A DNA stretch of 64,000 bases, taken from assembly GCA_900472295.1 (NCBI GenBank), contig UCIA01000003.1, positions 308,001-372,000 of the forward strand, given 5' to 3'. The notes beneath the pieces were generated by a model. It had not been told where the DNA came from and made no database searches. It saw only the letters and a program-made list of their open reading frames with translations. Shown piece after piece: positions 38,708-59,751 of the stretch; the stretch's first letter is position 1, and each line of letters starts with the position of its first letter. This stretch comes from Hyphomicrobiales bacterium. Lineage in GTDB: Bacteria > Pseudomonadota > Alphaproteobacteria > Rhizobiales > Rhizobiaceae. Made by a program: the position numbers and the translations under genes.

Positions 38708-40264
38708 TCAAAAGGGGGGCGCGCTCGCGACATGCCCAGCGACGCCATCCTCGGTCAGTTCGGCCAGCGCCAGCGACTGGTCGAGGTGCTTGGCCCGCCA
38801 GTCAAGCAGCCTTTCGGCGCACTTCAGCCGCACCGCTAGATAGGACGGATCCATCGCAACGTTGGTCAGTTCGCCCGGATCCTTTTTCAGATCGAACAGC
38901 AGAGGCGGGAGGCCACCGCCGAAATGCACGTATTTGAAGTTTTCCGTGCGGATGACGGCGAGGTTGCACTGGCGCGAGCCGATGCCGAAATGCTGCTCGG
39001 CTTCGCCGGCGGCAATCGAGCGGAAATCGAACTCCCAATGCGCGGCGTCACGCCAATCCCTTGGTGTCTCGTTCTCCAGGAATGGTTTTAGCGAGCGTCC
39101 GTCGAGATGCGGCTGGGCGTCGGCATCCAGCAGATCGAGCAAGGTCGGAAAGATGTCGACGGCCTCGGTGAAATGATCGATGGTCGAGCCGGCCGTCTTG
39201 CCGCGGCGCGGGTCGCGCAGGATCAGCGGGATGTGGTAGCTGCCGTCGAAAAAGCCGCCTTTGCCGAGCATGAAATGGTCGCCCATCATCTCGGCATGAT
39301 CCGAGGTCAGCACGATGACGGTGTCGTCCCATGCGTCAGCGTCCTTGATCGCCTGCCAGATGCGGCCGAGTTGTGCATCGACCTCCGAAATCATGCCGTA
39401 ATAGATCGCGCGGATGGCGCGGATGTTGTCGTCGCCCCAGTCGCGCACCTGGCCGTCCGTGCCGGGGCGGAAGCTCTTTCGCTTCTGGCGGCCGAGGTCG
39501 TAGGCGAGATAGGGATGGCTTTCTGCTTCCACCTGCCAGCTTTCCTGGCGGCGGAAGGCCGGGCCGTTGGCCGGATCGTACAGCGTGTTGTAAGGCGCCG
39601 GCACGATGAAGGGCGGATGCGGGCTGATGAAGGAGACATGCGCGAACCATGGCGCATCCTGCTCGCCCAGCCAGCGAATGAACTCGCCGGCGAGGAAGGC
39701 GGTCGGCGTCTCGTCTTTGGAATAGACAGGCGGCGCATTGGTCACGGCGTCGCCTGCTTTCTCGCCGACGGGGCGATGAATGCCGGGAGAGCCGGCGCTG
39801 GTGTCGACGCCACGTGACTTCAGCCATGACAGCCATTGTTTTTGATGTTCGGGCAGAGCCTGCCGCACGCTGAAGCCGGGCAGCACGCCCTCATAGCTCT
39901 GCAGCCGGGGGTCGCCCGGCGCCATCGTGCGCGGGTCGAGCGAAACGTCGGTGTAGCCGAACAGCGTCGGATCGTAGCCCAGCGCGCGCGCCGACAGGGC
40001 GATGTTGCCATGACGGGCGTCGAGCGGCGTGCCGTTGCGGCAGACGCGGTTGTTCATCTGGTAGAGGCCGGTGTAGAGGCAGGCGCGGGCTGGAGAGCAC
40101 GGAGCCGCGCCGCCGAAATGGCGCTTGAAAAGGACGCCCTCGGCGGCAAGCGCATCCGCATTCGGCGTCTTAGTCACCGGATGGCCGACAGCCGAGAGGC
40201 AGTCGCCTCGCCATTGGTCGCAGGAGATCAGGAGGATGTTCGGACGTCTGCTTTTCGCGGCCAA
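38708..40264 (-). CDS. Phosphonate monoester hydrolase / sulfatase-like enzyme
   Basis: The protein has 518 residues; the start is a TTG at 40264 with AGGA eight bases upstream. Alkaline-phosphatase-superfamily features are the metal ligands in LLISCDQWRGD, the modification motif CSPARACLYTG (formylglycine formed from the cysteine) and SDHAEMMGDH for the second metal ligands. Length and motif order follow rhizobial phosphonate monoester hydrolase (PMH) more closely than choline sulfatase. It would hydrolyse phosphate or sulfate mono/diesters in the cytoplasm, as no signal peptide is visible. It needs a formylglycine-generating enzyme, not seen in this window. Confidence 0.85.
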   Translation of the reverse strand: MAAKSRRPNILLISCDQWRGDCLSAVGHPVTKTPNADALAAEGVLFKRHFGGAAPCSPARACLYTGLYQMNNRVCRNGTPLDARHGNIALSARALGYDPTLFGYTDVSLDPRTMAPGDPRLQSYEGVLPGFSVRQALPEHQKQWLSWLKSRGVDTSAGSPGIHRPVGEKAGDAVTNAPPVYSKDETPTAFLAGEFIRWLGEQDAPWFAHVSFISPHPPFIVPAPYNTLYDPANGPAFRRQESWQVEAESHPYLAYDLGRQKRKSFRPGTDGQVRDWGDDNIRAIRAIYYGMISEVDAQLGRIWQAIKDADAWDDTVIVLTSDHAEMMGDHFMLGKGGFFDGSYHIPLILRDPRRGKTAGSTIDHFTEAVDIFPTLLDLLDADAQPHLDGRSLKPFLENETPRDWRDAAHWEFDFRSIAAGEAEQHFGIGSRQCNLAVIRTENFKYVHFGGGLPPLLFDLKKDPGELTNVAMDPSYLAVRLKCAERLLDWRAKHLDQSLALAELTEDGVAGHVASAPPF

Positions 40265-43879: not shown

Positions 43880-45139
43880 TCAAAAATCCGCTGGTGGATT
43901 GGCGGTGCGTCGGTCGAGCTTGATGAATGGTCGGGCCACCACCTTGGCCCGCTTCATCAGCTTCTGATACTGCAACTCGCGCATGGCATAGATCTCGACC
44001 CAGAGGTCTTCCACCATCGTATCACCATAGGGCCGTGCCAGCGAGGCAATGGCAATGTTGCGCTTGGCCATCGGCGACCAGATGGCGGCGCTGACCAGCC
44101 CGACCTCCTGATGCTTCTTGTGATAGACGATGGCGTGTTCGGCCGGGATGTTGCCCTCGATCTCCAGCCCGACCAGCACGTAGCGCAGCTTGCGTTTGGC
44201 ACGGGCTTCGACGATGGCGCGGCGGCCGTTGAAATGGCCTTTTGCCAAATCGATCATAAAGCCGAGGCCGATCTCGTCCGGCATGCGCAGACGGTCGGCG
44301 CGGATGGCATGTTCGGCGGTGGTGAAGTCGGCATTGGCGACGATCAGCCCTGCCTCGAGACGGGCGCGGTTGAGCGCGGTGTAGCCGATGGCGCGGATCC
44401 CGCGCAGTTCGCCTGCCGTCATCAGCCGGTCCCAGAGGCTGAGTGCCTTTTCGGCAGGCACGAACAGTTCGTAGCCGAGATCACCGGTGAAGCCCGTGCG
44501 CGAGATGGTGACGGTGCCGCCATCGTGCGGGAATTCGGCGAGGTCGAACACTTTGAGCTTGTCGACGCCGGCGAAGCCGGCATCGCGCAGCACGGCAAAC
44601 GAGGTCGGGCCTTGCAGGGCTAGCCCGGCGACGGCTTCGGTCTCCTCTTCGATGGTCACCTCAAAGCCAATGGCGCTGTCGAGCAGCCAGGGCAGATGCC
44701 GCTCCTGCGAACACAGGCGGAGGTGCGTCGACGACAGCCGAAACAGCGTGCCGTCGTCGAGGACGAAACCTTCATCGTCGCACCACGCTGTATAGTGGAC
44801 GCGGCCGGGTTTCAGCTTGGTCACATCGCGCAGCGTGACGCGATCGAGGAAGGCTTCGGCATCCGGTCCCTCGATGCGGTATTTCGTCATCGGCGAAATG
44901 TCGAACAGACCCGCCTGACTGCGGATGGCGAAATATTCGAGTTCCTCATCCCACAGCGAATGCGGGGCTCGGTAGCCGGCCCAATTGTACCAGTCCTGGG
45001 TTCTCGCCAACGCGTCGAGGCGGGGCTGGAATGGCGTGCCTAGACGCAAGGTACGGAAATGCGACTGGGCGGCGGTGCGGGCCAGGGCGATCGAGTTGGT
45101 CTTTGCCGCGGAAGGCTTCTTATGGGTTGCTTGCGCCAT
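43880..45139 (-). CDS. GcvT-like aminomethyltransferase
   Basis: The protein has 419 residues. The folate-binding GcvT fold is seen in [53 protein letters not shown] and [20 protein letters not shown]-terminal GcvT domain ([13 protein letters not shown]) follows. It is longer than glycine cleavage T protein (about 370). Relatives transfer methyl or methylene groups from N- or S-methyl compounds to tetrahydrofolate (DmdA, DMGDH and sarcosine-type enzymes). Here it may accept one-carbon units released by the flavoenzymes next door. It starts 3 bp after the preceding gene. Confidence 0.88.
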
Positions 45140-45142
45140 GAC

Positions 45143-46708
45143 CTAACCCTTCATCGCTATGATGCGCTTGGCGGCGTTCAACCCCGGCGCGCCGGAGACG
45201 CCACCACCGGGATGCGAACCGGCGCCGGCGAGGAACAGGCCCTCGACCGGCGTTTCGTAACCCGACCAGCCGGAGACCGGCCGCGACATCAGCATCTGGT
45301 CGGCCTGCAATTCGCCATGGTGCCAATGGCCGCCCGGCATGCGGTAGTTGGCTTCGATATCGGCCGGCGTCAAAAGCTCGGCATGCAGCACGGATTTGCC
45401 GATGCCGGGAGCATAGGTTTCCAGCTGCGCCATGATCGCCTTGAGGAATTTCGGCTTGCCCGTCCCCCAACCCTCTTTCAGCGCGTAAGGCGCGTATTGC
45501 ACCACCGCCGACAGCACGCAGGCGCCGGCTGGCGCGAGCGACGGACCGGCAAGCGAGGGCAGCGTGATCTCCATCACCGGCTCGGGCGAAAACTCGCCAT
45601 ATTTTGACGGGTTGAAGGCGCGCTCGACATGGTCGGGCGAGGGCGCGACGACCAGCCGGCCCTTGTGATCGGCGGCATCGACGCCGGTGAATTGCGGCGG
45701 CCGGTCGAGCGCCAGGTGGAGCTTCGCCGCATCGCCCTTCATGCGGATGTTCTTCACCTTGCGCACGAAACCGGTGTCGACTTCGCGCGGTCCAACGAGA
45801 TCGAGAATGGTGGTGGCCGGGTTGATGGCGGAGACAATTGCTTTGGCGCGCAGCACCTCGCCGCTGTCGAGGGTAACGCCGACGGCGCGACCTTTCTCGA
45901 CGATGATCCTGGCCACCGGTGTCGCGGTGCGGATGGTGACGCCGGCTTTTTCCGCCGCCGCGCGGATCGCAGCGATGACCGCGCCCATGCCACCTTTCGG
46001 CAGCATCTGCGCCCCGGCCGCACCGCCGGTCTCGCCGGCCAGCCTGTAGTAGAGGCCGAGCAGCGAGGTCGGCGAGCGCGGGCCGAGATGGCTGCCGAGC
46101 GTGGCGTCGAAGGCGAGCAGACCCTTCAGCCTGGTATCGGCAAGCTGCTCATCGAGCAGGTCGGCGACGTTCATCAGGAGCACGCGCAGGAAATCGCGCA
46201 TGTCTTCCTTGCCGAGTTTCTTCAGTGCCAGTGCAGTCTGGCCGAGCGCTGCCGTCTCCTTGAGCGACATGCCGCCGAGATCGGGCGGGCGCCGCGACAG
46301 GAACGGCTTCAATACGCCGGCATAGCGCAACAGTTGCGCGCGCAATTCCTTCCAGGCCGCCTGCTCGGACGGAGTGGAGCCGGTCAGCACTTCGCCATAG
46401 GCGCCGTGCAGGACGAGCGGCGGACCGTCTGTCGACAAGGCAACCGACGGCATGAAGTCGCTGCGCGCCAATTGCAGCCCGTGCTTTTCCAGCTCCAGTG
46501 TCTTGATGACATCGGTATGCAGGCGGTTCAGCACATGGGCGATCGAGGAGACGCGAAAGCCCGGCGCGAAGTCTTCGGTGCGCGCGGCGCCGCCGACTTC
46601 GGCTGCTGCTTCCAGCACCAGCACCTTGCGGCCGGCCTTGGCCAGCGTAGCGGCGGCGACAAGGCCATTGTGGCCGCCGCCGATGATGATGGCATCAAAT
46701 GACGTCAT
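45143..46708 (-). CDS. FAD-dependent oxidoreductase, PYROXD2/phytoene-desaturase-like (2)
   Basis: The protein has 521 residues. The FAD-binding dinucleotide fold is IIIGGGHNGLVAAATLAKAG with a following acidic LVLEAAAEVGGAA. The C-terminal FAD motif is GAGSHPGGGVSGAPGLNAA. The fold is that of CrtI-like amine/desaturase flavoenzymes; no carotenoid genes are near, so a desaturation or amine oxidation in the local pathway is more likely. The start overlaps the end of the upstream paralogue by 14 bp. The two paralogues may form a heterodimer. Confidence 0.88.
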   Translation of the reverse strand: MTSFDAIIIGGGHNGLVAAATLAKAGRKVLVLEAAAEVGGAARTEDFAPGFRVSSIAHVLNRLHTDVIKTLELEKHGLQLARSDFMPSVALSTDGPPLVLHGAYGEVLTGSTPSEQAAWKELRAQLLRYAGVLKPFLSRRPPDLGGMSLKETAALGQTALALKKLGKEDMRDFLRVLLMNVADLLDEQLADTRLKGLLAFDATLGSHLGPRSPTSLLGLYYRLAGETGGAAGAQMLPKGGMGAVIAAIRAAAEKAGVTIRTATPVARIIVEKGRAVGVTLDSGEVLRAKAIVSAINPATTILDLVGPREVDTGFVRKVKNIRMKGDAAKLHLALDRPPQFTGVDAADHKGRLVVAPSPDHVERAFNPSKYGEFSPEPVMEITLPSLAGPSLAPAGACVLSAVVQYAPYALKEGWGTGKPKFLKAIMAQLETYAPGIGKSVLHAELLTPADIEANYRMPGGHWHHGELQADQMLMSRPVSGWSGYETPVEGLFLAGAGSHPGGGVSGAPGLNAAKRIIAMKG

Positions 46709-48314
46709 GGGCCGGGCTCATATGCGAAGTGGATTTGGCGAGATCGCGCAGGATTTCGGCAGCGGCATTGCGGCCGGGTGCGCCCATGACGCCGCCGCCG
46801 GGATGGGTCGAGGAACCGCACATATAGAGCCCGCCTACCGGCGAGCGATATTGCGCATAGCCCGGCACCGGGCGGTTGAACAGCAGCTGGTCGAAGGTCA
46901 GCTCACCCTGGAAAATATTGCCTTCGGTAAGACCGACCTCGGCCTCGATCTCGCGTGGTGTACGCACCTCCATGTGGACGATGCGGTCGCGGAAGCCTGG
47001 CGAGTATTCTGATATCTGCGCGACCACGCTTTCGGCGAAACCGTCGCGGTCGGCATCGGTCCAGTCATGGCCGCTTACCTTGGGCGGCGCGTATTGCACG
47101 AAGCAGCTCATGAAGTGCTTGCCGGGCGACGCCATGGTCGGGTCGAGCGTCGTCGGGATGACCATGTCGAGGAACGGGTCGGCCGACCAGCGGCCGGCCT
47201 TCCAGTCGTCATAGGCGCGCTCCATGCGCTCCATCGAATCGGTGAAATGCATGTCGCCGCGATAGACCGGCGAATCCTTCGGCAGCGCCGGGAATTCCGG
47301 CAGCGAATCCAGCGCAATGTTGACCTTGCCGGACGAGCCACGGATCTTGAAGTTCTTCACCCGACGCAGGAAAATGTCGGGCAGTTCCTTTTCCTCGACC
47401 AGTTTCAGGAATGTACGTTTCACATCGGCGTTGGAGACGACGAGCTTGCCATAGACCTCTTCGCCGCCGGCCAGCACCACGCCTTTCGCCTTGCCTTTGG
47501 AAACCAGCACATGGTCGACCTCGGCGCCGGTGCGGATGGCGCCGCCGCTTGCCTTGAAGGAGGCGGCGAGCGCCTTTGTCACCGCGCCCATGCCGCCGCG
47601 CGCATAGCCCCAGGCGCCGACAGAGCCGTCGACCTCACCCATATAGTGGTGCAGCAGCACGTAAGCCGTGCCGGGCGACATCGGCCCGAGCGCGGTGCCG
47701 ATGATGCCTGATAAAGCGAAGTTCGCCTTGATGACGTCGGTCTCGAAATATTCGTCGAGGAACTCCGAGATCGACATGGTCCAGAAGCGCAGCGTCAGCG
47801 CCATTTCCTCTGCCGACAGGCCGGCGAACTTCTTGCCGAGATAGAGAAGCTCGCCGATGTCGCGTGGCCGAAAACTGGTCGGGTCGGGCGCGGTGCGCAT
47901 CAGCAGCGGCTGGATGAAGCGGCACTGCCGCGTCACGTCGCGCGAATAGCGGTCATAGGCTTCGGCGTCGCGTTTGGAGAAGCGGGCGAATTCGCGCCGG
48001 TGCGCATCATGGTCGCGGTAGTTGGCGAGGTAGTTGCCGTCGCGGGTGAACACCGCGCCGCCCTCATAGGAGATGACCTGCAGGCCGAAGCGCGGCAGTT
48101 CGAGATCGCGCATGATCTCGGGGCGAAACAGCGAGCAGACATAGGAGCAGTTTGAGTAGAGGAAGCCCGGCGTCAATTCCCTCGATGTGGCGGCGCCGCC
48201 GACCCAGTCGTTCTTCTCGACCACCAGCACATCGAGGCCTGCGCGCTGTAGGTAGCAGGCATTGACCAGGCCATTGTGCCCGCCGCCTATGATGATCGCA
48301 TCCCAAGCCTTCAT
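46695..48314 (-). CDS. FAD-dependent oxidoreductase, PYROXD2/phytoene-desaturase-like (1)
   Basis: The protein has 539 residues and is paralogous to the downstream gene. It has the N-terminal IIIGGGHNGLVNACYLQRAG with LVVEKNDWVGGAA and the C-terminal GSSTHPGGGVMGAPGRNAA. It is first in the four-gene minus-strand operon 48314-43629. The shared 16-bp operator lies at 48469-48484, in the divergent region with the methyltransferase gene. Substrate unknown; an amine or a cyclic intermediate is inferred from the locus. Confidence 0.88.
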   Translation of the reverse strand: MKAWDAIIIGGGHNGLVNACYLQRAGLDVLVVEKNDWVGGAATSRELTPGFLYSNCSYVCSLFRPEIMRDLELPRFGLQVISYEGGAVFTRDGNYLANYRDHDAHRREFARFSKRDAEAYDRYSRDVTRQCRFIQPLLMRTAPDPTSFRPRDIGELLYLGKKFAGLSAEEMALTLRFWTMSISEFLDEYFETDVIKANFALSGIIGTALGPMSPGTAYVLLHHYMGEVDGSVGAWGYARGGMGAVTKALAASFKASGGAIRTGAEVDHVLVSKGKAKGVVLAGGEEVYGKLVVSNADVKRTFLKLVEEKELPDIFLRRVKNFKIRGSSGKVNIALDSLPEFPALPKDSPVYRGDMHFTDSMERMERAYDDWKAGRWSADPFLDMVIPTTLDPTMASPGKHFMSCFVQYAPPKVSGHDWTDADRDGFAESVVAQISEYSPGFRDRIVHMEVRTPREIEAEVGLTEGNIFQGELTFDQLLFNRPVPGYAQYRSPVGGLYMCGSSTHPGGGVMGAPGRNAAAEILRDLAKSTSHMSPAHDVI

Positions 48315-48468: not shown

Positions 48469-48484
48469 TTGAATGAATGTTCAA
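48469..48484. promoter_or_regulatory. Shared amine-regulon operator, site A
   Basis: TTGAATGAATGTTCAA; on the minus strand it reads TTGAACATTCATTCAA. It shares TTGAAYRNWCATTCAA with sites B and C. It lies between the divergent oxidoreductase and methyltransferase operons. Confidence 0.8.
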
Positions 48485-48569
48485 CAAATGGCGTTGCGTT
48501 TTCTCTGGTATGCGCTACCTTTTGCCGGCAATCGAACGGGATGAATTCGGCTGACGGGACCGAGGTTCG

Positions 48570-49370
48570 ATGATTAAAACGGCAGATGCCGAGCCGGAAT
48601 ATGACGACACCGCCATTCGCTTCCTCGAGGCGCTGTGGGGCGAGGGCTATCTGTCGCCGGGCGGCCCGGACGAGGTTGACCGGGTCGTCGACGGCCTGTC
48701 GCTTACGGGTAAGGTCATCCTCGACATTGGCTGTGGCTCCGGCGGCATCGCGCTGCATCTGATCGAGCGCCATGGCGCTGCCCATGCCACCGGCTTCGAC
48801 ATCGAACAGCCGGTGATCGAAGCGGCCACGAAGCGGGCTGCGGCGCGCGGCCTTTCAGACCGGGCCAGCTTCGTCCAGGCGCCACCGGGGCCGTTGCCCT
48901 TCGCCGGAGCTACGTTCGACATTGTCTTCTCCAAGGATGCGCTGCTGCACGTGCCCGACAAGGACGCGCTGTTTGCCGAAATCTTCCGCGTGCTGAAGCC
49001 GGGTGGCGTCTTTGCCGCCTCCGACTGGCTGATCGGCCATGACGGTGAGCCGTCATCAGAGATGAAGGCCTATGTCGCGGCCGAAGGCCTGTCCTTCGCC
49101 ATGGCATCGCCTGCGCGCTACGCGCAAGCGATGCGCCGCGCCGGCTTTGCCGATGTCACGGTCAAAGACCGCAATCCCTGGTATCGCGAGGTCGCGCGTG
49201 GCGAGCTGGAAAGGCTGAAAGGCCCGCTCTACGAGACGGCAGCAGCAGCCGTCGGGGCGGCCTATGTCGACAAGAATATCAAGACCTGGGAAGCCATGCA
49301 GAAGGTGCTTGACAGTGGCGAGCACCGTCCCACTCATCTTCGCGGGTGGAAGCCGGCTATGGTGGGATAG
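48570..49370 (+). CDS. SAM-dependent methyltransferase, phosphoethanolamine-methyltransferase-like
   Basis: The protein has 266 residues. Motif I is [14 protein letters not shown], post-I FDIEQPVI, and motif [15 protein letters not shown]. The opening [19 protein letters not shown] resembles the start of PMT-type phosphobase N-methyltransferases (glycine/sarcosine and phosphoethanolamine methylators). A biosynthetic N-methyltransferase inside an apparent catabolic operon is unexpected; it may methylate or demethylate an intermediate. It leads the plus-strand operon and is followed by the TetR gene 6 bp later. Confidence 0.85.
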
Positions 49371-49376
49371 ACGGCA

Positions 49377-50063
49377 ATGTGGAGCATGACGGCACCGATG
49401 AAAGCTGCAGCGCGCGAAGAGCGATCCCCTGATCCGTCCGGGAAAAACGAACCGGAAAAACGCGGCCGCAAGGCATCGAAGGAAGTCAGGCAGCTGCAAC
49501 TGATCGAGGCGACCATCGATTCGCTGGCCAAGCGCGGCTACGCGGAGACGACGATGGCCGATGTCGCCGATGGCGCCGGCCTGTCGCGCGGCATCGTCAA
49601 CTTTCATTTCGAGAGCAAGGAGAAGCTGCTGATCGCGACGCTGCAGCACATGTATGACGAGTATTCGGCACACTGGCGTGCTGCTCTCCTGAAAGCCGGC
49701 GATGATCCTGCCCGCCAATTGCAGATCCTGGTGTGGGCCGATTTCGACCGTTCGATCTGCAACAAGCGCAAGCTCGCGGCGTGGCTCGCCTTCTGGGGCG
49801 AGGCCAAGTCGCGGCCGGTCTATCAGGCGCTCAGCAGTTCCCGCGACAACTACTACCAGCAGGTCTTCATCGATCTCTGCGCATCGCTCAAGCAGAGCGG
49901 CGGCTATGCCTATGAGCCACAGGTGATGGCGCTGGCGCTGTCGGCCATGCTGGAAGGCTTGTGGCTGCGGTTGATGATGGGAACCGAGGACACCACGCGT
50001 GAAACCGCCCTGCAAGCGGCGAATGCGTTCCTCGCAGCCGCCTTTCCCAAGCACTACGGATAA
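49377..50063 (+). CDS. BetI-like TetR-family regulator
   Basis: The protein has 228 residues; in-frame ATGs at 49386 and 49398 are alternatives. After a disordered basic arm, the HTH is seen in LAKRGYAETTMADVADGAGLSRG and FHFESKEKLL. The ligand-binding domain has KRKLAAWLAFWGEAKSRP, like BetI, the repressor of choline genes. It lies in the operon it would control. The shared 16-bp palindrome upstream of five transcription units is the natural candidate for its binding site. That link is inference from dyad symmetry, TetR operator size and gene location. Confidence 0.85.
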   Translation: MWSMTAPMKAAAREERSPDPSGKNEPEKRGRKASKEVRQLQLIEATIDSLAKRGYAETTMADVADGAGLSRGIVNFHFESKEKLLIATLQHMYDEYSAHWRAALLKAGDDPARQLQILVWADFDRSICNKRKLAAWLAFWGEAKSRPVYQALSSSRDNYYQQVFIDLCASLKQSGGYAYEPQVMALALSAMLEGLWLRLMMGTEDTTRETALQAANAFLAAAFPKHYG

Positions 50064-50118
50064 ACAGAAGCCGGCCAGTCGAGCCGGCAACGCAACGACA
50101 AGAGAGGATGGAACAGCA

Positions 50119-51201
50119 ATGAAAAGACTAACCCGACGCCTGACGCTGACATTGGCGCTGACGGCAACGCTGGCGGCTTCGGCAGCGGCGCTTGCGGTCG
50201 CTGCCGACAAGGACCTGATCGTGTTCGACTGGTCCGGCTATGAGGACCCGAGCTTCCATCCGAAATATGTTGAGAAGAACGGCGACTCGCCGACCTTCGC
50301 CTTCTTTGGTGACGAGGACGAAGCCTTTGAGAAGGCACGCTCAGGCTTCAAGGCCGATCTCGGCCATCCCTGTTCGCAAAGCGTGACGAAGTGGCGTGAA
50401 GCCGGCCTGCTGCAGCCGCTCGACACCTCGAAGATCACCGGCTGGAAAGATCTCAATCCCGGCATCATGGCGATGAAGGATCTGGCGACCACGTCTGACG
50501 GCAAGGCCTGGTTCATGCCTTGGGACTGGGGCAACACCCAGCTCACCTACAACTCCGACAAGATCGACGCCAAGGATGTGCAGTCGCTGAAAGCTTTCGC
50601 TGACCCCAAATTCAAGGGGCGCGTAACGATCGGCGACAATGTCGACGACGCCTATGCGCTGGCCAGCCTTGCCATCGGGCTGAAGGACTGGACCAAGATG
50701 ACGGACGACCAGTTCAAGCAGGCGTCCGACTTCCTGCGCCAGGTGCACAAGAATGTCCGCTCCTACTGGACCGACACCACCGACGTCGTGCAGCTGTTGA
50801 GCGGCGGCGAGGTTGACCTCGCCTGGGCGTGGAACGACGCGACGGTCCAGTCCGTGGCGGCCGGCGTGCCGATCAAGTCCAAGAAAGATACGGATGAGGG
50901 CATTTCGACCTGGGTCTGCGGCTATGTCCTGTTCAAGGACGCACCCGGCAATGCCGACAAGGCCTATGACTATCTGAACGCTATCAACGATCCGGAAATC
51001 GCCAAGGTGCTGGTCAAGGACTGGGGCTATGGCCAGGCCAATGCCAAGGGAATGGCTGGTGTCGACCCGGCGATCCTGAAGGAAAAGGGCTATGACGACG
51101 TGCAGAAATTCGTCGACAAGACACTGTTCCAGTCGCCGGTGCCGTCGGCGCTGAAGCTCAAGATGATCGCCGAGTTCGAGAAGATCAAAGCGGGCTACTA
51201 G
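50119..51201 (+). CDS. PotD-like polyamine/amine substrate-binding protein (1)
   Basis: The protein has 360 residues from ATG 50119, behind AGAGAGGATGG. The signal peptide ends ALAVAADKD. The mature part has [38 protein letters not shown] and WVCGYVLFKDAPGNADKAY, as in COG0687 spermidine/putrescine-type receptors. It is closely paralogous to the next gene. The importer ATPase and permeases lie on the other strand at 53749-56607. The ligand is probably an amine, not defined. Confidence 0.9.
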   Translation: MKRLTRRLTLTLALTATLAASAAALAVAADKDLIVFDWSGYEDPSFHPKYVEKNGDSPTFAFFGDEDEAFEKARSGFKADLGHPCSQSVTKWREAGLLQPLDTSKITGWKDLNPGIMAMKDLATTSDGKAWFMPWDWGNTQLTYNSDKIDAKDVQSLKAFADPKFKGRVTIGDNVDDAYALASLAIGLKDWTKMTDDQFKQASDFLRQVHKNVRSYWTDTTDVVQLLSGGEVDLAWAWNDATVQSVAAGVPIKSKKDTDEGISTWVCGYVLFKDAPGNADKAYDYLNAINDPEIAKVLVKDWGYGQANAKGMAGVDPAILKEKGYDDVQKFVDKTLFQSPVPSALKLKMIAEFEKIKAGY

Positions 51202-51318
51202 CGCCCCGTCCGTCCTCCTCCGTCTGCCCGCCATTGTGCCGGGCGGACGGTCTCGCCAAGGCCGCTGAAATTCCGTAACGTCGCCCGGCTGAGTTTTAGC
51301 GATGAGGAGTTTCGCGCC

Positions 51319-52395
51319 ATGAATTCCATGCTTCGCCGCCTTGCCCTTGCCGCTGCGCTGACAGTCGGCGCCGGCGCTGTGCTGGCTTATGCCGAAGGCG
51401 GCGGCGACCTCGTCGTGTTCGACTGGTCGGGCTATGAAGATCCGCTGCTGCATCCCGACTACACCGCCAAATATGGTGCTGAGCCAACCTTCGCTTTCTT
51501 CGGCGATGAGGAAGAAGCCTTTCAGAAGATGCGGGCCGGCTTCAAGGCCGACATCGCCCACCCCTGCTCGCAAAGCGTGGTCAAATGGCGCGAGGCCGGC
51601 GTATTGCAGCCGCTCGATACCAGTCGCATAGCTGGCTGGAAGGATCTCAATCCCGGCATCATGGCGATGAAGGACCTTGCCACCACCGCCGACGGCAAGG
51701 CCTGGTTCATGCCGTTCGACTGGGGCAACACCTCGCTGCTCTACCGCACCGACAAGGTGACGGCTGAAGAGGCGCAATCGCTGCGAATCTTCGCCGATCC
51801 GAAGTTCAAGGGGCGCGTCACCATCGGCGACAATGTCGATGATGCCTATGCGCTGGCAAGCCTGGTCATCGGCCTCAAGGACTGGACCAAGATGACCGAT
51901 GCGCAGTTCCAGGAGGCCTCCGCCTTCCTGCGCGACGTGCACAAGAATATCCGCTTCTACTGGACCGACGACACCGATCTCAACCAGGCCTTTACCGGCA
52001 ATGAGGTGGACCTCGTCTGGGGTTGGAACGAGACCTTCGTGACGCTCAAGGGACAAGGCATGCCGATCGCCATGAACCGCAACACCAAGGAAGGCATTTC
52101 CACCTGGGTCTGTGGCTATGTGCTGATGAAGGACGCACCGGGCAATCTCGACCAGGCCTATGATTTCCTGAGCGCGGTCAACACGCCCGCCGTGTCGGAC
52201 TACATGGTCAAGACCTTCGGCTATGGCCACGGCAACAGTGCCGGCATGGCGGCGATCGATCATCAGGTGCTGACCGACCGCGGTTTCGACAATCTCGACA
52301 AGTTCCTGGACAAGACGCTGTTCCAGCAGCCGGTGCCGCCGGACCTCAAGCAGCGCATGGTCGCCGAGTTCGAGAAGATCAAGGCCGGCTATTGA
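51319..52395 (+). CDS. PotD-like polyamine/amine substrate-binding protein (2)
   Basis: The protein has 358 residues and is a tandem duplicate of 50119, alike along its whole length: the shared blocks [38 protein letters not shown] and LKDWTKMTD are near identical. The signal peptide differs ([20 protein letters not shown]). The ligand-facing stretch at about residues 215-245 ([20 protein letters not shown]) differs most from the first copy (LAWAWNDATVQSVAAGVPIK). This suggests different ligand ranges for one shared permease. The stop overlaps the amine oxidase start. Confidence 0.9.
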
Positions 52396-53687
52396 CCACG
52401 GCATTGGAGAGAACCGACGTCGTCATCGTCGGCGCCGGCTTCACCGGGCTTTCGGCGGCGCTTGAACTGAAGCGAGCCGGCATCGATGTCGTGCTGCTCG
52501 AAGCGCGCGACCGCGTCGGTGGGCGGGTCGAAGCTGTTCGCAACGGGCTTGGCGAGCGCATCGACAGCGGTGGCCAGTTTTTCTGCGAAGACATGCCTGA
52601 GGTGACGGCGCTGGCTGCCTCACGCGGCAAGGCCTTCGTCGAAACCTATGTGGATGGCGATTTCATCACCCATCCTTCGCTGTCGGTCGAACAGGCCGAG
52701 CGGACCTATCATGGCGCGATGGCGATCCGCGAGCGCATGAATGCGATCGAGCCCGATGATCCCGCGATCGCCGGCATGAGCGTCGCTGCTTGGCTCGAAC
52801 GCCAGCCTGACCCGACTGATGCCAAGACGGCCTTCCGGTCGATGATCGAAGGCCTGTGGTGCCTGGCAATGGACAGAGTGCCGCTTTGGTACCTGATCGA
52901 CAATGACCGACGCATCACCAACGAAGTGCCTGAGTTGCAATATTCGTTGCGCGAGACGATGCAATCGCTGGCCGAGGATCTGGCCGGCGATCTTGGTGAT
53001 CGGGTGCGGCTGAACGAGCCGGTCACGCGCATCGAGCATGGGCCGCAAGGGGTTCGCGTCGTCTCGGCAAGCGGTGCCATCGACGCGCGAAGAGTGCTGG
53101 TCGCGGTGCCGCCGGCGACGGCCGCGAAGCTCGATTTCGCACCCGCCCTGCCGCCAGTCCTCGGCAAGGCGCTAGGCGTTTGGGAAAGCGGCGCGGTGAT
53201 CAAGATCCTGGTGCGCTACGCCACGCCATTTTGGCGCGAGCGCGACCTATGCGGCATGGTGATGTGGCGCGACCTGCCGGGCCTGTTTGCCTGCGACGCC
53301 AGCAAGGATGCCGATCATGCGGCGCTGGTCGTCTTTGTCGGCGGACCACTGGCGCTGCGCTGGCATGGCCTTGACCAACCCGTGCTGCGAGCGGAGGTGG
53401 CGAAAAAGTTGGAGGACGCCCTTGGTCCGGAGGCGGCCGACATTATCGATTTCAGCCAGCGCGACTGGATCGAGGACCGCTGGAGCGGCGGCGCCTACAG
53501 CGATCTTATTGTCGATGTAACGGCAAGAGATGCCGAACGCACGATCCGCGCCGGCGCGCGGCCCGTTCATTTTGCATCGTCGGAGCTGTCTCCGTCATTT
53601 CCGGGCTATATCGAAGGCGCCATCGTGATCGGGCGGATCGCAGCCAAAGAGATTGCGGCGGAACTTAAAATTCTTAGTGGAGCATGA
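52392..53687 (+). CDS. Flavin monoamine oxidase-family protein
   Basis: The protein has 431 residues; the start is a TTG overlapping the TGA of the preceding gene (52392-52395). The FAD-binding N-terminus is [18 protein letters not shown] with [11 protein letters not shown]. The C-terminal FAD region is [18 protein letters not shown]. It resembles bacterial monoamine/putrescine oxidases that make aldehyde, ammonia and peroxide from amines. It has no signal peptide, so oxidation is cytoplasmic after import. Its stop codon lies within a palindromic repeat. Confidence 0.9.
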
Positions 53688-53750
53688 TCTCTGGACAAAC
53701 GGTTTCCGTTTGTCCGAGAAAACCGGTTCCCACTTTTTGGGATCATGCTC
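53680..53750. repeat. GAGCATGATC palindromic element between convergent genes
   Basis: Outer arms GAGCATGATC / GATCATGCTC enclose an inner hairpin GGACAAACGG / CCGTTTGTCC. It overlaps the stop codon of the amine oxidase and touches that of the ATPase gene, serving as a terminator for both. Confidence 0.85.
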
Positions 53751-54876
53751 AGTCTGCCATCGCCACCAGGGCCTCGGGGTCGTAGCCGAGGCGGATCGAC
53801 GTGCCGACGGGGATGTCGTCGGCGCCGAAATCATTGGTCTCGGTCACCGACAGCGGTTTTTCCAGGCCCGGTATCTCGACGATCAGATGGGTGATCTCGC
53901 CGAAATAATGGCGTTCGACCACCTTGCCGGCGACCTCGAATTTCGCCGTCGCATTGTCCCACAGGACGCGCAGCCGCTCTGGCCTTATGCCCAGCGTGGC
54001 GCTGCCGCCATTGCGCACGAAGGCCTTCGGCTTGTCGGTCCTGACGCGGCCGAAGCCCAGCGTGTCGACAACCAGCGAGGCGGTATTCTCCTCGACGATC
54101 TCGGCTTTGACGAAATTCATGCCGCCGAGGAAATCGGCAACCTGGCGGTTGACCGGCCGCTGGTAGATTTCCTTGGGCGAAGCGACCTGGGCGATCTTGC
54201 CGCCGAACATCACCGCGATCCGATCGGACATTGCGAGGGCCTCATATTGGTCGTGGGTGACCAGCACGAAGGTGATGCCGACGGCCTGCTGCAGGCGGCG
54301 CAGTTCGACCTGCATCTGCTCGCGCAGCTTCTTGTCGAGCGCCGATAGCGGCTCGTCGAGCAGCAGCACCTTGGGCCGCATCACCAGAGCGCGGGCGAGC
54401 GCCACACGCTGACGCTGGCCGCCGGAAAGCTCGGTGGCGAGGCGTTTGCCGAGGCCGGTCAGCGACACCTGCGCCAGCGCTTCCTCGACGCGGCGCTTTT
54501 CTTCCACCGCGCCCAGTCTCAGCCGTTTCAGCCCATAGGCGACGTTCTGCTCGACGTTGAGATGCGGGAAGATGGCGTAGCTCTGGAACACCATGTTGGT
54601 GGGCCGGCGGTTGGCCGGGATGCCCTCCATCGACTGGCCGCCGACCGAGATCGAACCGCTGGTCGGGTTGTCGAAACCGGCAATCATGCGCAGCAGCGTG
54701 GTCTTGCCGCAGCCGGACGGGCCAAGCAGCGAAAAGAACTCGCCTTCCCTGATCGTCAGCGTCGCGTCGTCGAGCGCCTTGAAGGCGCCGTAGCTGCGGG
54801 TGACTTTGCGGATCTCGATCATCGCCCGATCGGTTTGGGGTCGCTCAGATTGAGGCCGCTCAGACTGCTCAGGCAT
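53749..54876 (-). CDS. Amine ABC transporter ATP-binding protein (PotA-like)
   Basis: The protein has 375 residues from ATG 54876, behind GGGAGG; a longer frame from 54933 is unlikely. Walker A is GPSGCGKTT, signature LSGGQRQRVALARAL and Walker B VLLLDEPLSALD, followed by the switch THDQYEAL and a C-terminal TOBE domain (LGIRPERLRVL). This is the CUT1/PotA class. The start overlaps the permease stop. It energises import for the two PotD-like receptors. Confidence 0.93.
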   Translation of the reverse strand: MPEQSERPQSERPQTDRAMIEIRKVTRSYGAFKALDDATLTIREGEFFSLLGPSGCGKTTLLRMIAGFDNPTSGSISVGGQSMEGIPANRRPTNMVFQSYAIFPHLNVEQNVAYGLKRLRLGAVEEKRRVEEALAQVSLTGLGKRLATELSGGQRQRVALARALVMRPKVLLLDEPLSALDKKLREQMQVELRRLQQAVGITFVLVTHDQYEALAMSDRIAVMFGGKIAQVASPKEIYQRPVNRQVADFLGGMNFVKAEIVEENTASLVVDTLGFGRVRTDKPKAFVRNGGSATLGIRPERLRVLWDNATAKFEVAGKVVERHYFGEITHLIVEIPGLEKPLSVTETNDFGADDIPVGTSIRLGYDPEALVAMAD

Positions 54877-55693
54877 AGAGGCCTCCCTCATTCTGGGTGC
54901 GCCTGGCCGCACGGCGGCGCAGAATTTCGGCAACAGTCATCAGGACAAAGGAAGCAACCAGCAGCAGCGTGCCCAGCGCCAGCACGCCCGGCAGCTTGGC
55001 AGCAAAACGCAGCTGGCCCCAGATATAGATCGGCAGCGTCGTCTCGGTACCGGTCAGGAAGAAGGCGATGACGAACTCGTCGAGCGAAATGGTGAAGCAG
55101 ACCAGCAGGCTGGAGATGATCGCCGGCGCCACCATCGGCAGCGTCACCCGCCGGAAGGTGCCGAAGGCGCTCTCGCCGAGATCGGCGGAGGCTTCTTCGA
55201 GGCTGCGGTCGAAGCCCTCGAAGCCGGCGGTCAGCACTGTCATCGAATAGGGAATGCAGATCAGGACATGGCCGAGCACGACGGTGAACAGCGAGAGGCT
55301 GAGGCCCAGCTGCAACATGACCAGCAGCATCGAGATGGCGAGGATGATTTCCGGCAGCACCAGCGGCGCCATGATCAGGCCGTTGATGGTGCGGCGGCCG
55401 GGATAGCGGTAGCGGGTGATCGAACGGGCAGCGAGAATGCCCAGCAGCGTCGCCAGCACAGATGCCGAGATACCGACGATCAGGCTGTTCCAGGCGGCGT
55501 CGAGCAGGGCCGGTGTCTTCGGCAGGTCTTGGTACCATTTCAGCGTATAGCCGGTGAGGGGAAATTTCGGCGTCGGCGCGGTGTTGATCGAGAAAATCGG
55601 CAGGAAGATCACGGGCAGATAGAGAAAGACGATGTAGAGGAAGGCGTAGACGGTCAGCCAGCCGCCGGAAAAGAAACGCCGCATCGCCGTCAT
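54869..55693 (-). CDS. Amine ABC transporter permease (PotC/PotI-like)
   Basis: The protein has 274 residues from ATG 55693, which overlaps the previous stop (ATGA). A longer frame into the upstream permease is rejected. About six membrane segments are visible, beginning WLTVYAFLYIVFLYLPVIFL. The coupling loop is EEASADLGESAFGTFRRVTL. It is the second channel subunit. The end overlaps the ATPase start. Confidence 0.92.
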   Translation of the reverse strand: MTAMRRFFSGGWLTVYAFLYIVFLYLPVIFLPIFSINTAPTPKFPLTGYTLKWYQDLPKTPALLDAAWNSLIVGISASVLATLLGILAARSITRYRYPGRRTINGLIMAPLVLPEIILAISMLLVMLQLGLSLSLFTVVLGHVLICIPYSMTVLTAGFEGFDRSLEEASADLGESAFGTFRRVTLPMVAPAIISSLLVCFTISLDEFVIAFFLTGTETTLPIYIWGQLRFAAKLPGVLALGTLLLVASFVLMTVAEILRRRAARRTQNEGGLYA

Positions 55694-56607
55694 CGCGCCA
55701 ACCTCTGCAATGCGCGGATGATCAGCACCGTGGCGCCCGCCATCAGCGAGACGACCAGCATAGTGGTGACGGACAATGCCGCGCCCAGCGGCCAGTTCGA
55801 TGCTTTGCCGAACTGCGCCTGGATGGCGTTGGCGATCATGACGCCGTCCTTGCCGCCGACCAGCTTCGGGGTGACATAGTCGCCGACGGTCGGGATCATG
55901 ACGATGAGTGCGGCTGACAGGACGCCCGGCGCCGACAGCGGCAGCGTCACGCGCAGGAAGGAGCGCAACGGGCCGTCGCCGAGATCGGTGGCGGCCTCGA
56001 CCAGAGTGCGGTCGACCTTCTCCAGCGAAACGAAGATCGGCAGGATGGCGAAGGCCGCCCAGGCGTGCGTCAGCGTGATGATGACGGCGCTGGAATTGTA
56101 GAGCAGCGCGGTCGACGGCTCGTCGATGATGCCGAGGCCCATCAGGCCGGAATTGAGCACGCCGTTGTAGCCGAGGATCACCTTCCACGACATCACGCGC
56201 AGCAGGTAGCTGGTCCAGAACGGGATGGTGATCAGGAACAGCCACAGGCTCTTGTGGCGGCCGCCGTGGAACGAGATGAAATAGGCGATGGGATAGGCGA
56301 GGATGACGGTGAAGAAGCTCACCGTGAGCGATATGTAAAGCGAGCGCCAGAGCAGATCGCGGTAGATCGGTTCGGTCAGCGCGATGCGATAATTCTCCAG
56401 CGTGAAAGTGTGGTCGGTGGTGAGGTAGTCCTGCGTCCAGAAGGAGTGGGCGAAGACCACCAGGATCGGCAGCACCAGCAGGATCAAAGCGTAGAGGAAA
56501 GTCGGGCTGATCAGGGCAAAGCCCTGGACGGATTCGGACTGCAGAAGGGCGTTTCGCCTGGCCCGCGTCATGCCGAACACGGGCTGCCCTTCGGCAGCTG
56601 CCGTCAT
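55690..56607 (-). CDS. Amine ABC transporter permease (PotB/PotH-like)
   Basis: The protein has 305 residues from ATG 56607, with GGAG seven bases upstream; the frame continues to 56658 without a better start. Six membrane segments begin FLYALILLVLPILVVFAHSF. The coupling loop is VEAATDLGDGPLRSFLRVTL. It heads the minus-strand transporter operon, 204 bp from operator site B. Confidence 0.92.
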   Translation of the reverse strand: MTAAAEGQPVFGMTRARRNALLQSESVQGFALISPTFLYALILLVLPILVVFAHSFWTQDYLTTDHTFTLENYRIALTEPIYRDLLWRSLYISLTVSFFTVILAYPIAYFISFHGGRHKSLWLFLITIPFWTSYLLRVMSWKVILGYNGVLNSGLMGLGIIDEPSTALLYNSSAVIITLTHAWAAFAILPIFVSLEKVDRTLVEAATDLGDGPLRSFLRVTLPLSAPGVLSAALIVMIPTVGDYVTPKLVGGKDGVMIANAIQAQFGKASNWPLGAALSVTTMLVVSLMAGATVLIIRALQRLAR

Positions 56608-56810
56608 TGCAGCGCTCCGGGTGTGATCGCGGTTGCTGGCTTTCGAGCCATGCGGCATCCCATTGCTAGCGCCGGCGGCTTGTTCCCTTTTTCGGAGCGC
56701 GGTCGGATGCGGGGATCCGTCTTTTGCCGATAGCGCTCCATGCTTGCCGGCTTTCTTTCATCATGAACGCATCCGCCAATTGAAATCAAGCGCTATTTCT
56801 GCAATATTGA

Positions 56811-56826
56811 TTGAACGGACATTCAA
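56811..56826. promoter_or_regulatory. Shared amine-regulon operator, site B
   Basis: TTGAACGGACATTCAA, in the 301-bp divergent region between the transporter operon and the aminotransferase gene. The rest of 56608-56908 shows no gene. Confidence 0.82.
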
Positions 56827-56908
56827 AATGAAGTGAAGAAAGCCGGCTTTTCCGGCGCTTGCGCTTCGTTGTGGGCCCGTCGAAAATTATGCTCAGACAT
56901 GCGAGGCG

Positions 56909-58324
56909 ATGATGGCGGCTGCAAGAGACCTACGAGCGATGGAAATGGCCGGCGATGACGATGCGGTCGAGCTCGCCAAGCGTCATCTGGTCCAGCCCTG
57001 GCCCTATGCCGGTTCGGTCGGCAATGAAGCGCGCGCGCTGATCGGCGAGGGTGACGGCATCTACATCACCGATGTCACAGGCAAGCGGCTGATCGACGGT
57101 CCCGCCGGCATGTGGTGCATCAATATCGGCCACCGCCGCGAGGAGCTGGCCAAGGTGATGTACGACCAGGCGATGATGCTGTCCTATAACACGCCCTGGT
57201 ACACGATGAACGCGCCGTCGGCCGAGCTTGCCAAGCGCATCGCCGACCATGCGCCGGGCGATCTCAGCCACACCTTCTTCACCACCGGCGGCTCCTCGGC
57301 CGTCGAGACGGCGCTGCGTTTCATGCAGTTCTACAACAATGTGCGAGGGCGGCCGGAAAAGAAGCTGATCCTCAGCCGCGGCGGCGCCTATCACGGCTCG
57401 ACCTATCTGTCGGCCTCGCTCAATGGCCGGCCGCGCGACCGCGACTGGATGGACGGTGCCGACGAGCTGGTCGTGAAACTGTCTTCGCCCGATCCGTTCC
57501 GGCGGCCGAAAGGCATGGATATCGCTGCCTTCTGCGATTTCCTCGTCGACCAGTTTCGCGACACCGTCGCCCGCGTCGGTGCCGACAAGATCGGCGCTTT
57601 TGTCGGCGAGCCGGTGCAGGCATCGGGCGGCGTCATCATTCCGCCGGACGGCTATCTCAAGCGCATCCGCGAGATCTGCCGCGAGAACGATATTCTCTAT
57701 GTCTCCGACGAAGTGGTGACCGGTTTCGGACGGCTCGGCCATGTCTTTGCCTCCGGCGACGTCTTCGGCATCGACCCCGACATGATCACCTTCGCCAAGG
57801 GTGTCACATCAGGCTATTTCCCGCTTGGCGGCGTCATCATGTCGGAGCGGCTGCTTCAGGAAATGCGCCGCTCCAACCATCCCGACGCGATGTTCGGCCA
57901 TGGCCTGACCTACACCAGCCATCCGATCGGCTGCGCGGTGGCGCTGAAGAACCTCGACATCCTCGAAGACAGCGTGCTTGCCCACACGCGCGAGGTCGCG
58001 CCCTATTTCCAGGCGCAGCTGAAGACGCTGGAAGAATTGCCGCTGGTCGGCGAAGTGCGCGGCATGGGCCTGATGGGCTGCGTCGAATGCGTCGCCGACC
58101 GCGAAAGCAAGGATCCGCTGCAGCTCGACAAGGATGTCGGCAAACGCATCGACGCGCATTGCCACGAGCTTGGCCTGCTGGTGCGGCCGCTGATCAACAT
58201 GTGCGTGATGTCGCCGCCGCTGATCATTTCGCGCGAGCAGATCGACGACATGGTGGCGATCCTGCGCGAGGGCATTTCGCGCACGATGGATGATCTAAGG
58301 AAAGAGGGCGTGTGGCAGGGGTGA
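56909..58324 (+). CDS. Class III aminotransferase (omega-amine:pyruvate type)
   Basis: The protein has 471 residues; ATGs at 56909 and 56912 are adjacent, with GAGG upstream. PLP-fold features are FFTTGGSSAVETALRFMQFY, SRGGAYHGSTYLSASLNG, the aspartate in LYVSDEVVTGFGR and the Schiff-base lysine in TFAKGVTSGYFPLGG. It belongs with putrescine/beta-alanine-type omega aminotransferases that pass an amino group from a terminal amine to pyruvate. It is the plus-strand partner of operator site B. Confidence 0.9.
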   Translation: MMAAARDLRAMEMAGDDDAVELAKRHLVQPWPYAGSVGNEARALIGEGDGIYITDVTGKRLIDGPAGMWCINIGHRREELAKVMYDQAMMLSYNTPWYTMNAPSAELAKRIADHAPGDLSHTFFTTGGSSAVETALRFMQFYNNVRGRPEKKLILSRGGAYHGSTYLSASLNGRPRDRDWMDGADELVVKLSSPDPFRRPKGMDIAAFCDFLVDQFRDTVARVGADKIGAFVGEPVQASGGVIIPPDGYLKRIREICRENDILYVSDEVVTGFGRLGHVFASGDVFGIDPDMITFAKGVTSGYFPLGGVIMSERLLQEMRRSNHPDAMFGHGLTYTSHPIGCAVALKNLDILEDSVLAHTREVAPYFQAQLKTLEELPLVGEVRGMGLMGCVECVADRESKDPLQLDKDVGKRIDAHCHELGLLVRPLINMCVMSPPLIISREQIDDMVAILREGISRTMDDLRKEGVWQG

Positions 58325-58331
58325 TAGCGTT

Positions 58332-58507
58332 CCTCGCCCCGTTCTACGGGGAGAGGATGCCGGCAGGCAGGTGAGGGGCGGCGCCGGCTTGCGAGATTTT
58401 GGTGCAGGCGCTTGCCGAGGTCAGGGTTCCGCAACCAATAGCGAGATGATGGCGCTGCCCCTCATCCGCCCTTCGGGCACCTTCTCCCCGTGAAACGGGG
58501 AGAAGGG
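58332..58507. repeat. Inverted-repeat intergenic element between aminotransferase and Rieske genes
   Basis: CGCCCC...GGGGAGAGG at the left end and CTTCTCCCC...GGGGAGAAG at the right end, with GGTGAGGGGCGGC mirrored by GCCCCTCATCCGCC. It has the same architecture as 829-1033 and probably terminates both convergent genes. Confidence 0.75.
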
Positions 58508-58515
58508 AAAAAGCC

Positions 58516-59718
58516 CTACACCTGCGAGCGCATGGCGTCGTTGAGGTTCCACATGTCCTTCTCCTCCGGCGCCGTCTCCAGGCCCAGCACCGGGATCTGC
58601 TTGCGCAGATGGTCGTGGTGGGTGCGCACGCCATATTCGAGGTCGGAGAGATAAAATCCCTCGAAGGCCTCCGAGATCATGGATTCGTTCGACCACACGG
58701 AAAGCTGCACGTCCTCGTTCATGGTGTCGCGGTCGATGCGGTAGGCGAGATAGCGCGCGGCCGCCTGTTCCCGCGTCTCGTCGGGATAGCGATAGACCGC
58801 GCCGCGCAGCAGCGTCTCGCCGGTCGACAGCGGGAACTCCTGATAGAACTGCACCGATTCCGGCATGATCGACAGCGCGTTGTTGGGGAAGATGCCGTAG
58901 TAGATCCAGGCCCTGCGCAGATGCTCCGGCAGATGCGACGCGTCGGGCTTGAGCTTGATGTATTCGCGCACGCTCCAGCGCCGGCCGGCATGCGGGTTGT
59001 AGCTGGCGAAGGAGCGCGACACGCCGTTGATGAATGGTTCGTCGAAATAGGTCGCGCCATAGAGGTCCTGCAGCGCCGGATGCGCCATGGCGACGTGATA
59101 GCCTTCATTGTCGACGTCGCGCACCGACTTCCAGTTGACCGGCGTCTTCTGTGTCCAGATGCCCCAGGCCGGCACCATCTCGGCGACATTGTAGTGCGCC
59201 ATCTCGGCCTCGATCGGCTTCAGGAGCTCAGCCACCGAAGGCTGGGGGCCGCCCTTGCGGAAGCGGATGAAGATAAAACCCATCCAGATTTCGAGGTCGA
59301 GCGGCATCAGGCCGAACTCGGTCTTGTCGAGCTCTGGGAAGGAGCGCGGACGGGCAGCACCGCGCAGCGTGCCGTCGAGATTGTAGACCCAGCCATGGAA
59401 CGGGCAGACGAGCGCGTTCTTGCAGGTGCCCTGGCTGTCGGCGACGACGCGGCTGCCGCGATGGCGGCACATATTGTTGAAGGCGCGCACGACGCCGTCC
59501 TTGCCGCGCACGATCAGCGCCCGTTCGCCGACCACGTCCATGGTCAGATAGTCGCCGGCGTTCGGCACGTCGGAGATATGGCCGACGATCTGCCAATGGT
59601 TGCGGAAGACGTATTCCTTCTCGAGTTCGAGAAGCGCGTTGGAGTGGTAACTCCAGCCCGGCAGGCCCCGCCGGTCCCAATCATTGGGGATCGCCACGTC
59701 ACGGAGGTGCGGGTTCAT
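58516..59718 (-). CDS. Rieske non-haem iron oxygenase, alpha subunit
   Basis: The protein has 400 residues from ATG 59718 (AAGAAGAG upstream; ATG 59724 lies too close to it). The Rieske [2Fe-2S] site is CRHRG with CPFHGW 17 residues on. The mononuclear iron site has NEGYHVAMAH. The size and the class fit GbcA/CntA/Stc2-like enzymes that oxidatively demethylate quaternary amines. The reductase partner is not in the window. Operator site C lies 18 bp upstream, and the longer reading frame would cross it. Confidence 0.92.
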   Translation of the reverse strand: MNPHLRDVAIPNDWDRRGLPGWSYHSNALLELEKEYVFRNHWQIVGHISDVPNAGDYLTMDVVGERALIVRGKDGVVRAFNNMCRHRGSRVVADSQGTCKNALVCPFHGWVYNLDGTLRGAARPRSFPELDKTEFGLMPLDLEIWMGFIFIRFRKGGPQPSVAELLKPIEAEMAHYNVAEMVPAWGIWTQKTPVNWKSVRDVDNEGYHVAMAHPALQDLYGATYFDEPFINGVSRSFASYNPHAGRRWSVREYIKLKPDASHLPEHLRRAWIYYGIFPNNALSIMPESVQFYQEFPLSTGETLLRGAVYRYPDETREQAAARYLAYRIDRDTMNEDVQLSVWSNESMISEAFEGFYLSDLEYGVRTHHDHLRKQIPVLGLETAPEEKDMWNLNDAMRSQV

Positions 59719-59735
59719 AAACATCTCTTCTTTTA

Positions 59736-59751
59736 TTGAATACTCATTCAA
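59736..59751. promoter_or_regulatory. Shared amine-regulon operator, site C
   Basis: TTGAATACTCATTCAA inside a longer dyad, TTTTATTGAAT-ACTC-ATTCAATAAAA (59731-59756). It overlaps the expected promoter of the Rieske gene. The rest of 59719-60224 has no convincing gene; a 12-bp palindrome TTTCTTAAGAAA lies at 60197-60208. Confidence 0.85.

Follow-up and report, generated by a model that had tools for sequence, protein, structure and literature searches.

Introduction

BetI, a TetR repressor, controls the bet genes in response to choline. The available part of a study on R. pomeroyi (PMC12442346) describes for BetI1 the palindrome ATTGACG*CGTCAAT and a protected stretch of 29 bp that covers the -35 element of its target. 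Here we describe a catabolic locus in a 64,000-nucleotide stretch of DNA from a Hyphomicrobiales bacterium of the Rhizobiaceae (assembly GCA_900472295.1, contig UCIA01000003.1, positions 308,001 to 372,000). We call this stretch the window and number positions from its first letter. The locus encodes a BetI-like TetR-family protein at 49377..50063 (plus strand; the 49377 regulator) and carries three copies of a 16-bp palindrome, sites A, B and C, which are likely its operators.

The 49377 regulator resembles BetI in its TetR_N and BetI-type C-terminal domains and in the predicted palindromic operators that lie in the promoter regions of a catabolic locus. It differs in the box, which is TTGAAYRNNYRTTCAA at this locus and in the genus BetI is TTGATTGAYSSRTCAA, similar to that of BetI1; its locus is without bet genes, and it coexists with a true BetI. 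R. pomeroyi BetI2 is likewise a BetI paralogue; its boxes have AAACTTGAAC in common and depart from the betI consensus (PMC12442346), so that a TTGAAC element is already known from a BetI paralogue. BetI2 differs in controlling betTA (choline) via two overlapping palindromes. Our literature searches on BetI motifs and BetI-like regulators returned this one close paper and, in the accessible parts of the literature, none on the present locus. The regulators of trimethylamine catabolism in the accessible part of PMC13390433, TmaR (an AraC-type activator) and TmoR, are not the 49377 regulator. Local TetR repressors of catabolic loci also have the regulator gene inside the locus and sites at the locus promoters, that of their own operon included. 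They differ in that the same literature yielded no described pathway with the gene set found here (two CrtO-like flavin adenine dinucleotide (FAD) oxidoreductases, GcvT, a Rieske oxygenase and a Pot-type transporter).

Results and discussion

Three palindromes at the promoter regions of one locus

Site A (48469-48484) carries the pattern on the minus strand and reads TTGAATGAATGTTCAA on the plus strand; site B (56811-56826) reads TTGAACGGACATTCAA and site C (59736-59751) TTGAATACTCATTCAA. All three were found where a preliminary description of the window had placed them, with no mismatch to its pattern, and a fully symmetric consensus, TTGAAYRNNYRTTCAA, covers them. Site A is a predicted operator between two divergent operons, 155 bp from the start of crtO1 and 86 bp from that of the methyltransferase gene. 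Leftward of it lie crtO1, crtO2 (the two CrtO-like oxidoreductases) and gcvT; rightward lie the methyltransferase, the TetR regulator, two PotD-like proteins and a flavin amine oxidase. Site B, also a predicted operator, sits between a leftward operon of two Pot-type permeases and a PotA-like ATPase (~204 bp to the permease start) and the rightward aminotransferase gene (83 bp). The predicted operator at site C precedes the Rieske oxygenase gene, 17 bp upstream of its start. Operon boundaries were taken from gene order. On this layout each of the five units, the regulator's own included, has a site in its promoter region, and the three intergenic regions could drive all five units, as the preliminary description had proposed.

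The motif is rare in its own genome. At up to two mismatches the window gave six strand-hits, which are sites A, B and C only; shuffles of the window gave a mean of 0.34, and 0 of 100 reached six. Across the whole genome (6,448,763 bp in 78 contigs) TTGAAYRNNYRTTCAA matches exactly three times, each time in the locus, against 0.056 matches expected by composition per genome and 0.0001 per 11.3-kb locus. A reversed control pattern matched exactly once. The genome scan had been suggested in the preliminary description as a test for a motif that is frequent genome-wide, and its outcome does not refute the interpretation given there. At up to two mismatches there are 92 matches for the motif versus 64 for the control. 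Exactly one mismatch adds four places, on contigs C37, C49, C60 and C63 (C, L and G numbers are our handles for contigs, loci and genomes). Those on C49 and C63 are within long open frames and that on C37 is ~20 bp ahead of a TetR-like gene (judged by eye); C60 is taken up below.

Conservation of the sites in place was measured with the neighbouring gene as anchor. A search of genome contigs for the regulator confirmed 87 places, of which the best 80, mostly from Mesorhizobium, were kept. Allowing one mismatch, site A is present in 75 of the 76 loci that have crtO1 (46 exact; four loci are without crtO1), site B in 70 of 71 assessable loci (65 exact; nine are without the anchor gene) and site C in 48 of 50 (45 exact; 22 gave no gene match and eight ran off the contig end). 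The ~400 bp before the TetR gene served as a control. The best 16-mer there had three or more mismatches in 72 of the 80 loci; in the remaining eight the control stretch includes site A itself. The 16-bp core is also better conserved than its flanks, at 1.91 versus 1.16 bits per column for A, 1.82 versus 1.19 for B and 1.72 versus 1.12 for C. The best other 16-column stretches reach 1.49 (A), 1.75 (B) and 1.69 (C) bits per column, close to the core values at B and C, which therefore have conserved neighbours as well.

The arrangement extends beyond Mesorhizobium. Among the matches listed, seven plasmids have both crtO1 and Rieske orthologues, and on the five from Rhizobiaceae sites A, B and C are in place (B exact, A and C with one or two mismatches) at 55-84% protein identity. 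In Xaviernesmea (L104) the transporter genes are placed differently and still have a site in front. In Solirhodobacter (L106) close orthologues only of the regulator and the aminotransferase were found, with a site between them. Of 199 genomes searched in the family, 45 carry crtO1; the site check left out seven of these 45 loci. Site A is within one mismatch in 29/29 of the loci L181-L209, and among the longer loci L222-L229 a site lies directly at crtO1 in six of eight, that of L222 and L223 being behind an intervening TetR gene. In Mesorhizobium and other Rhizobiaceae alike, each of the three sites has kept its place, and the differently placed transporter block of L104 has a site too. At class level crtO1 was found in 17 of 385 genomes, that of the window included. 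We note that in one distant family twin palindromes such as CTGAATGATCATTCAA and TTGAATGCTTATTCAG, with starts 19 bp apart, stand ahead of a 57-60% identical crtO1 (L218 11246-11280; also L173, L174, L176 and L178).

The genus was sampled with 146 genomes, in which the regulator was called at E up to 1e-50 and the motif as an exact match. Regulator and motif were each found in 119 genomes; 118 have both, 26 neither, one the regulator only and one the motif only (agreement in 144/146). Part of this association is trivial, since the regulator's locus is also where the sites are. The useful part of the test is the low background of the motif where the regulator is missing: the 27 genomes without it (20 identified by name, seven by subtraction) contain one exact match altogether. 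The reversed control pattern matched 15 times across the 146 genomes (our own count). Some genomes of the genus have four to six exact motif matches. A recurrent extra site, TTGAACGACTGTTCAA, between a GntR gene and rpe (both identified by eye), was judged unrelated.

The regulator is a BetI-like paralogue

The preliminary description had noted a BetI-like TetR gene inside the locus, and domain searches bear this out. The 49377 protein matches PF00440 (TetR_N) and PF13977 (TetR_C_6, the BetI-type C-terminal domain) above cut-off. It passes NF001978 (transcriptional regulator BetI) with 126.7 bits versus 118 and fails TIGR03384, the choline-binding BetI equivalog model, with 124.8 bits versus a cut-off of 201.3. 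The true BetI of the same genome, on contig C61, scores 235.6 bits with TIGR03384, and a close BetI match was found in 31/31 sampled genomes, motif-bearing or not. True BetI has the recognition helix GVSSALAHHYF and the box TTGATTGAYSSRTCAA, present in 13/13 of the upstream regions read (30 loci were scripted, of which 13 fitted the start pattern and were read). Neither a choline dehydrogenase nor a betaine aldehyde dehydrogenase gene is among the 13 annotated genes of the 49377 locus. From the TIGR03384 result, the box and the linkage we class the 49377 protein as a BetI-like paralogue and not as BetI. We also note a third BetI-like TetR at C47:38651-39340 (L163 6652-7341), which has the palindrome TTGTATGCTCATACAA in front and adjoins a choline-type ATP-binding cassette (ABC) binding protein (TIGR03414 above cut-off).

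The regulators that accompany the window motif have in common the recognition helix of the 49377 protein, GLSRGIVNFHF (121 of 141 hits, with some genes counted twice). In distant relatives a different recognition helix goes in some cases with a different palindrome, a partial correspondence with exceptions. The helix GLSQGVAVFYF occurs in three loci, two of which (L112 and L214) have TTTGAGCGCTCAAA at crtO1. One of these, the Parasedimentitalea plasmid pW43C (L112), carries the same pathway genes with a different palindrome, TTGAGCGCTCAA, at three promoters (positions 8536, 17026 and 23588; TTGAGCGCTCAA at the first two, changed by one base at the third). L216, with the helix GLSHGIVNFYF, carries ACATTGATTGAACGTTCAATCAATGT.

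Proposed regulation

We consider it likely that sites A, B and C are operators of the 49377 regulator and that it represses all five units, its own gene included. We infer binding, repression, ligand and substrate from sequence. Without the pathway substrate, a regulator dimer would sit on each of A, B and C, at the promoter regions, and would block the oxidoreductase-GcvT, methyltransferase-regulator-receptor-oxidase, transporter, aminotransferase and Rieske units. The regulator would come off on binding a ligand, probably the methylated amine once imported or else an early product, so that uptake, oxidation, capture of one-carbon (C1) units and transamination would come on together. A promoter-like element, TTGAAA-17-AATATT (56780-56808), ends 2 bp before site B. 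Its place, with site B right after the promoter-like -10, and that of site C 17 bp from a start codon favour blocking.

Several observations weigh against this proposal. The promoter-like element is one match versus 0.2 in shuffles, and promoter scans gave no match at sites A and C. In the anchored comparison one locus (L038) keeps B and has neither A nor C, one (L075) is without B and one (L083) is without C. In the genus, G054 has the regulator without an exact site and G030 one site without the regulator, and several genomes have extra exact matches elsewhere, for example between the GntR gene and rpe. The motif thins out beyond the family: neither of the Rhodobacterales plasmids (L111, L112) has a site within one mismatch, and in the class-level crtO1 loci L165-L180, where a short stretch at crtO1 was scanned, a site within one mismatch is present in 5/16. 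L211 shares the helix GLSQGVAVFYF and has a degenerate palindrome only, and in the fragments scanned L212 (GLSRGIVNFYF) and L217 (GLSRGIVTFYF), with helices nearly identical to that of the window, have no such site. From these three exceptions, covariation of helix and operator is not strict.

Alternatives

The preliminary description took the palindromes to be sites of the 49377 regulator and to define a closed regulon. Its core is supported, with three exact matches in the genome, all in the locus; the word "closed" may not hold. In favour of closure there is no further exact site in the genome, and against it the one-mismatch site on C60 may be a fourth target. That site, TTGTACGATCGTTCAA, is one base off the motif and ~25 bp before a flavin oxidoreductase gene, in a region (G000:C60:75162-79741; L159 5163-9742) that also holds, following this gene, an MttB-like gene (trimethylamine methyltransferase family, below the family cut-off) and, on the other strand, a BetI-like TetR with the helix GVSRGLINHHF, 2 kb from the flavin oxidoreductase. 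It is possible, though we think it rather unlikely, that the 49377 protein also controls this unlinked operon and so adds a demethylation step. Besides the near-identity of the site and its position, two points speak for such control. The C60 TetR was found in 40 of the 146 genomes, and all 40 have the window regulator (119/146 overall). The pathway cluster of Parasedimentitalea (L112) itself contains a flavin oxidoreductase with 48% identity, divergent from a gene for a binding protein, and the cluster palindrome TTGAGCGCTCAA stands between the two. On the other side, the C60 TetR near the site is its simpler reader. The C60 site or its TTGAAC form occurs in 36 of the 146 genomes, all of them among the 40 with the C60 TetR (36/40). 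Co-occurrence cannot decide which protein reads the site, because every such genome has both regulators.

The presence of several BetI-like paralogues in the same genome raises the converse prospect, that another BetI-family protein (the true BetI of C61, or the C60 or C47 paralogue) reads sites A, B and C, with the 49377 protein at most secondary. The C60 paralogue would be suited by its similar helix and similar site, which in at least five genomes (G039, G056, G102, G118 and G128) is the exact window motif. We regard this as improbable. The C60 regulator occurs in 40/146 genomes only and the window motif in 119, and true BetI has its own box, conserved in all 13 upstream regions, and occurs in all 31 sampled genomes, whether they have the motif or not.

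Still less probable, in our view, is that the 49377 protein binds these sites as an activator, or as a dual regulator at some of them. There is a precedent: in the available text of PMC12442346, R. pomeroyi BetI2 picks between two overlapping boxes according to effector, inducing on one side and repressing on the other. The 155 bp between site A and the crtO1 start also leave the relation of this site to the crtO1 promoter unfixed. The positions of sites B and C given above favour blocking instead. Finally, we think it most improbable that the palindromes are due to chance, or are general elements of promoters, and are conserved merely along with these: TTGAAC does resemble a -35 element and the related loci do have common ancestry, but three exact sites in one 11-kb locus with none elsewhere in the genome, a single match in 27 genomes without the regulator and a core better conserved than its flanks all speak against it.

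Genes of the locus

Leftward of site A, on the minus strand, domain and family searches identified crtO1 (46695..48314) and crtO2 (45143..46708), followed by a GcvT-family, tetrahydrofolate C1-transfer protein (43880..45139) whose top NCBIfam match corresponds to the C-terminal portion of trimethylamine N-oxide demethylase. The rightward operon begins with an S-adenosylmethionine-dependent methyltransferase (48570..49370, plus strand), followed by the predicted repressor. On the same strand are PotD-like solute-binding protein 1 (50119..51201; open reading frame listed from 49999, start set at MKRLTRR), PotD-like solute-binding protein 2 (51319..52395) and a flavin amine oxidase of the monoamine/putrescine oxidase superfamily (52392..53687). 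The transporter operon, on the minus strand, comprises a PotA-like ABC ATPase (53749..54822; TIGR01187 above cut-off, start set at MIEIRKV), a PotC-like permease assigned by family searches (54869..55693) and a PotB-like permease (55690..56607), the start of which is uncertain, the open reading frame being open to 56658. The class III aminotransferase (56909..58324, plus strand) matches NF005447 above cut-off, and the Rieske ring-hydroxylating-type oxygenase lies at 58516..59718 on the minus strand. A sulfatase (PF00884 with SGSH_C) at 38708-40264 is outside the site-bearing units.

Both tandem PotD-like proteins (window 50119-52395) contain STWVCGYVL, with W-V-C where PotD and PotF have W-x-D, as seen by alignment and, for the second protein, by eye. 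The PotD residues behind this comparison we take to be W255 and D257. The change in both binding proteins argues against an ordinary polyamine as substrate. Many relatives seemingly carry one PotD-like binding protein instead of two.

Pathway and substrate

The genes point to an imported methylated amine that would be oxidized, demethylated onto tetrahydrofolate and transaminated; the substrate is probably such an amine. The nearest named relatives of the Rieske protein are GbcA and the carnitine monooxygenase of PDB entries 6y9c and 6y8j. The Rieske monooxygenase systems for glycine betaine (GbcA) and carnitine (CntA) are among the closest known ones. They differ from the locus in that its Rieske protein scores far below the GbcA cut-off (NF058607, 130.7 bits versus 670) and in that no reductase-subunit domain is present among the 13 locus genes. 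Homarine, methylated polyamines and trimethyllysine were considered as substrates and set aside, no matching gene set having appeared for them in the accessible literature.

A broader interpretation, which we put forward tentatively and at somewhat less than even chances, is that these regulators form a BetI-derived clade and that this clade is the mark of a pathway for methylated-amine breakdown, so far undescribed, on chromosomes and plasmids of Rhizobiales and Rhodobacterales. One operator per promoter would have been kept, with the operator sequence swapped together with the recognition helix. In such a pathway the Pot-type transporter with the altered amine-binding motif would import the compound, the Rieske oxygenase, the two CrtO-like flavoenzymes and the GcvT-like protein would demethylate it onto tetrahydrofolate, and the class III aminotransferase would remove the amino group.

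Conclusions

The 49377 regulator most likely acts in the same way as BetI and other TetR repressors of local scope, as another regulator of a kind already known. Operator and linkage separate this BetI-like paralogue from BetI on sequence alone, in a genome that has several BetI-like TetR proteins and only one true BetI. Caution is needed with the loose NF001978 model, which would call the 49377 regulator BetI though its predicted targets are not bet genes. The predicted three-operator regulon could be read by a single reporter, which opens the substrate to test: the pathway could be named from the compound that lifts repression.

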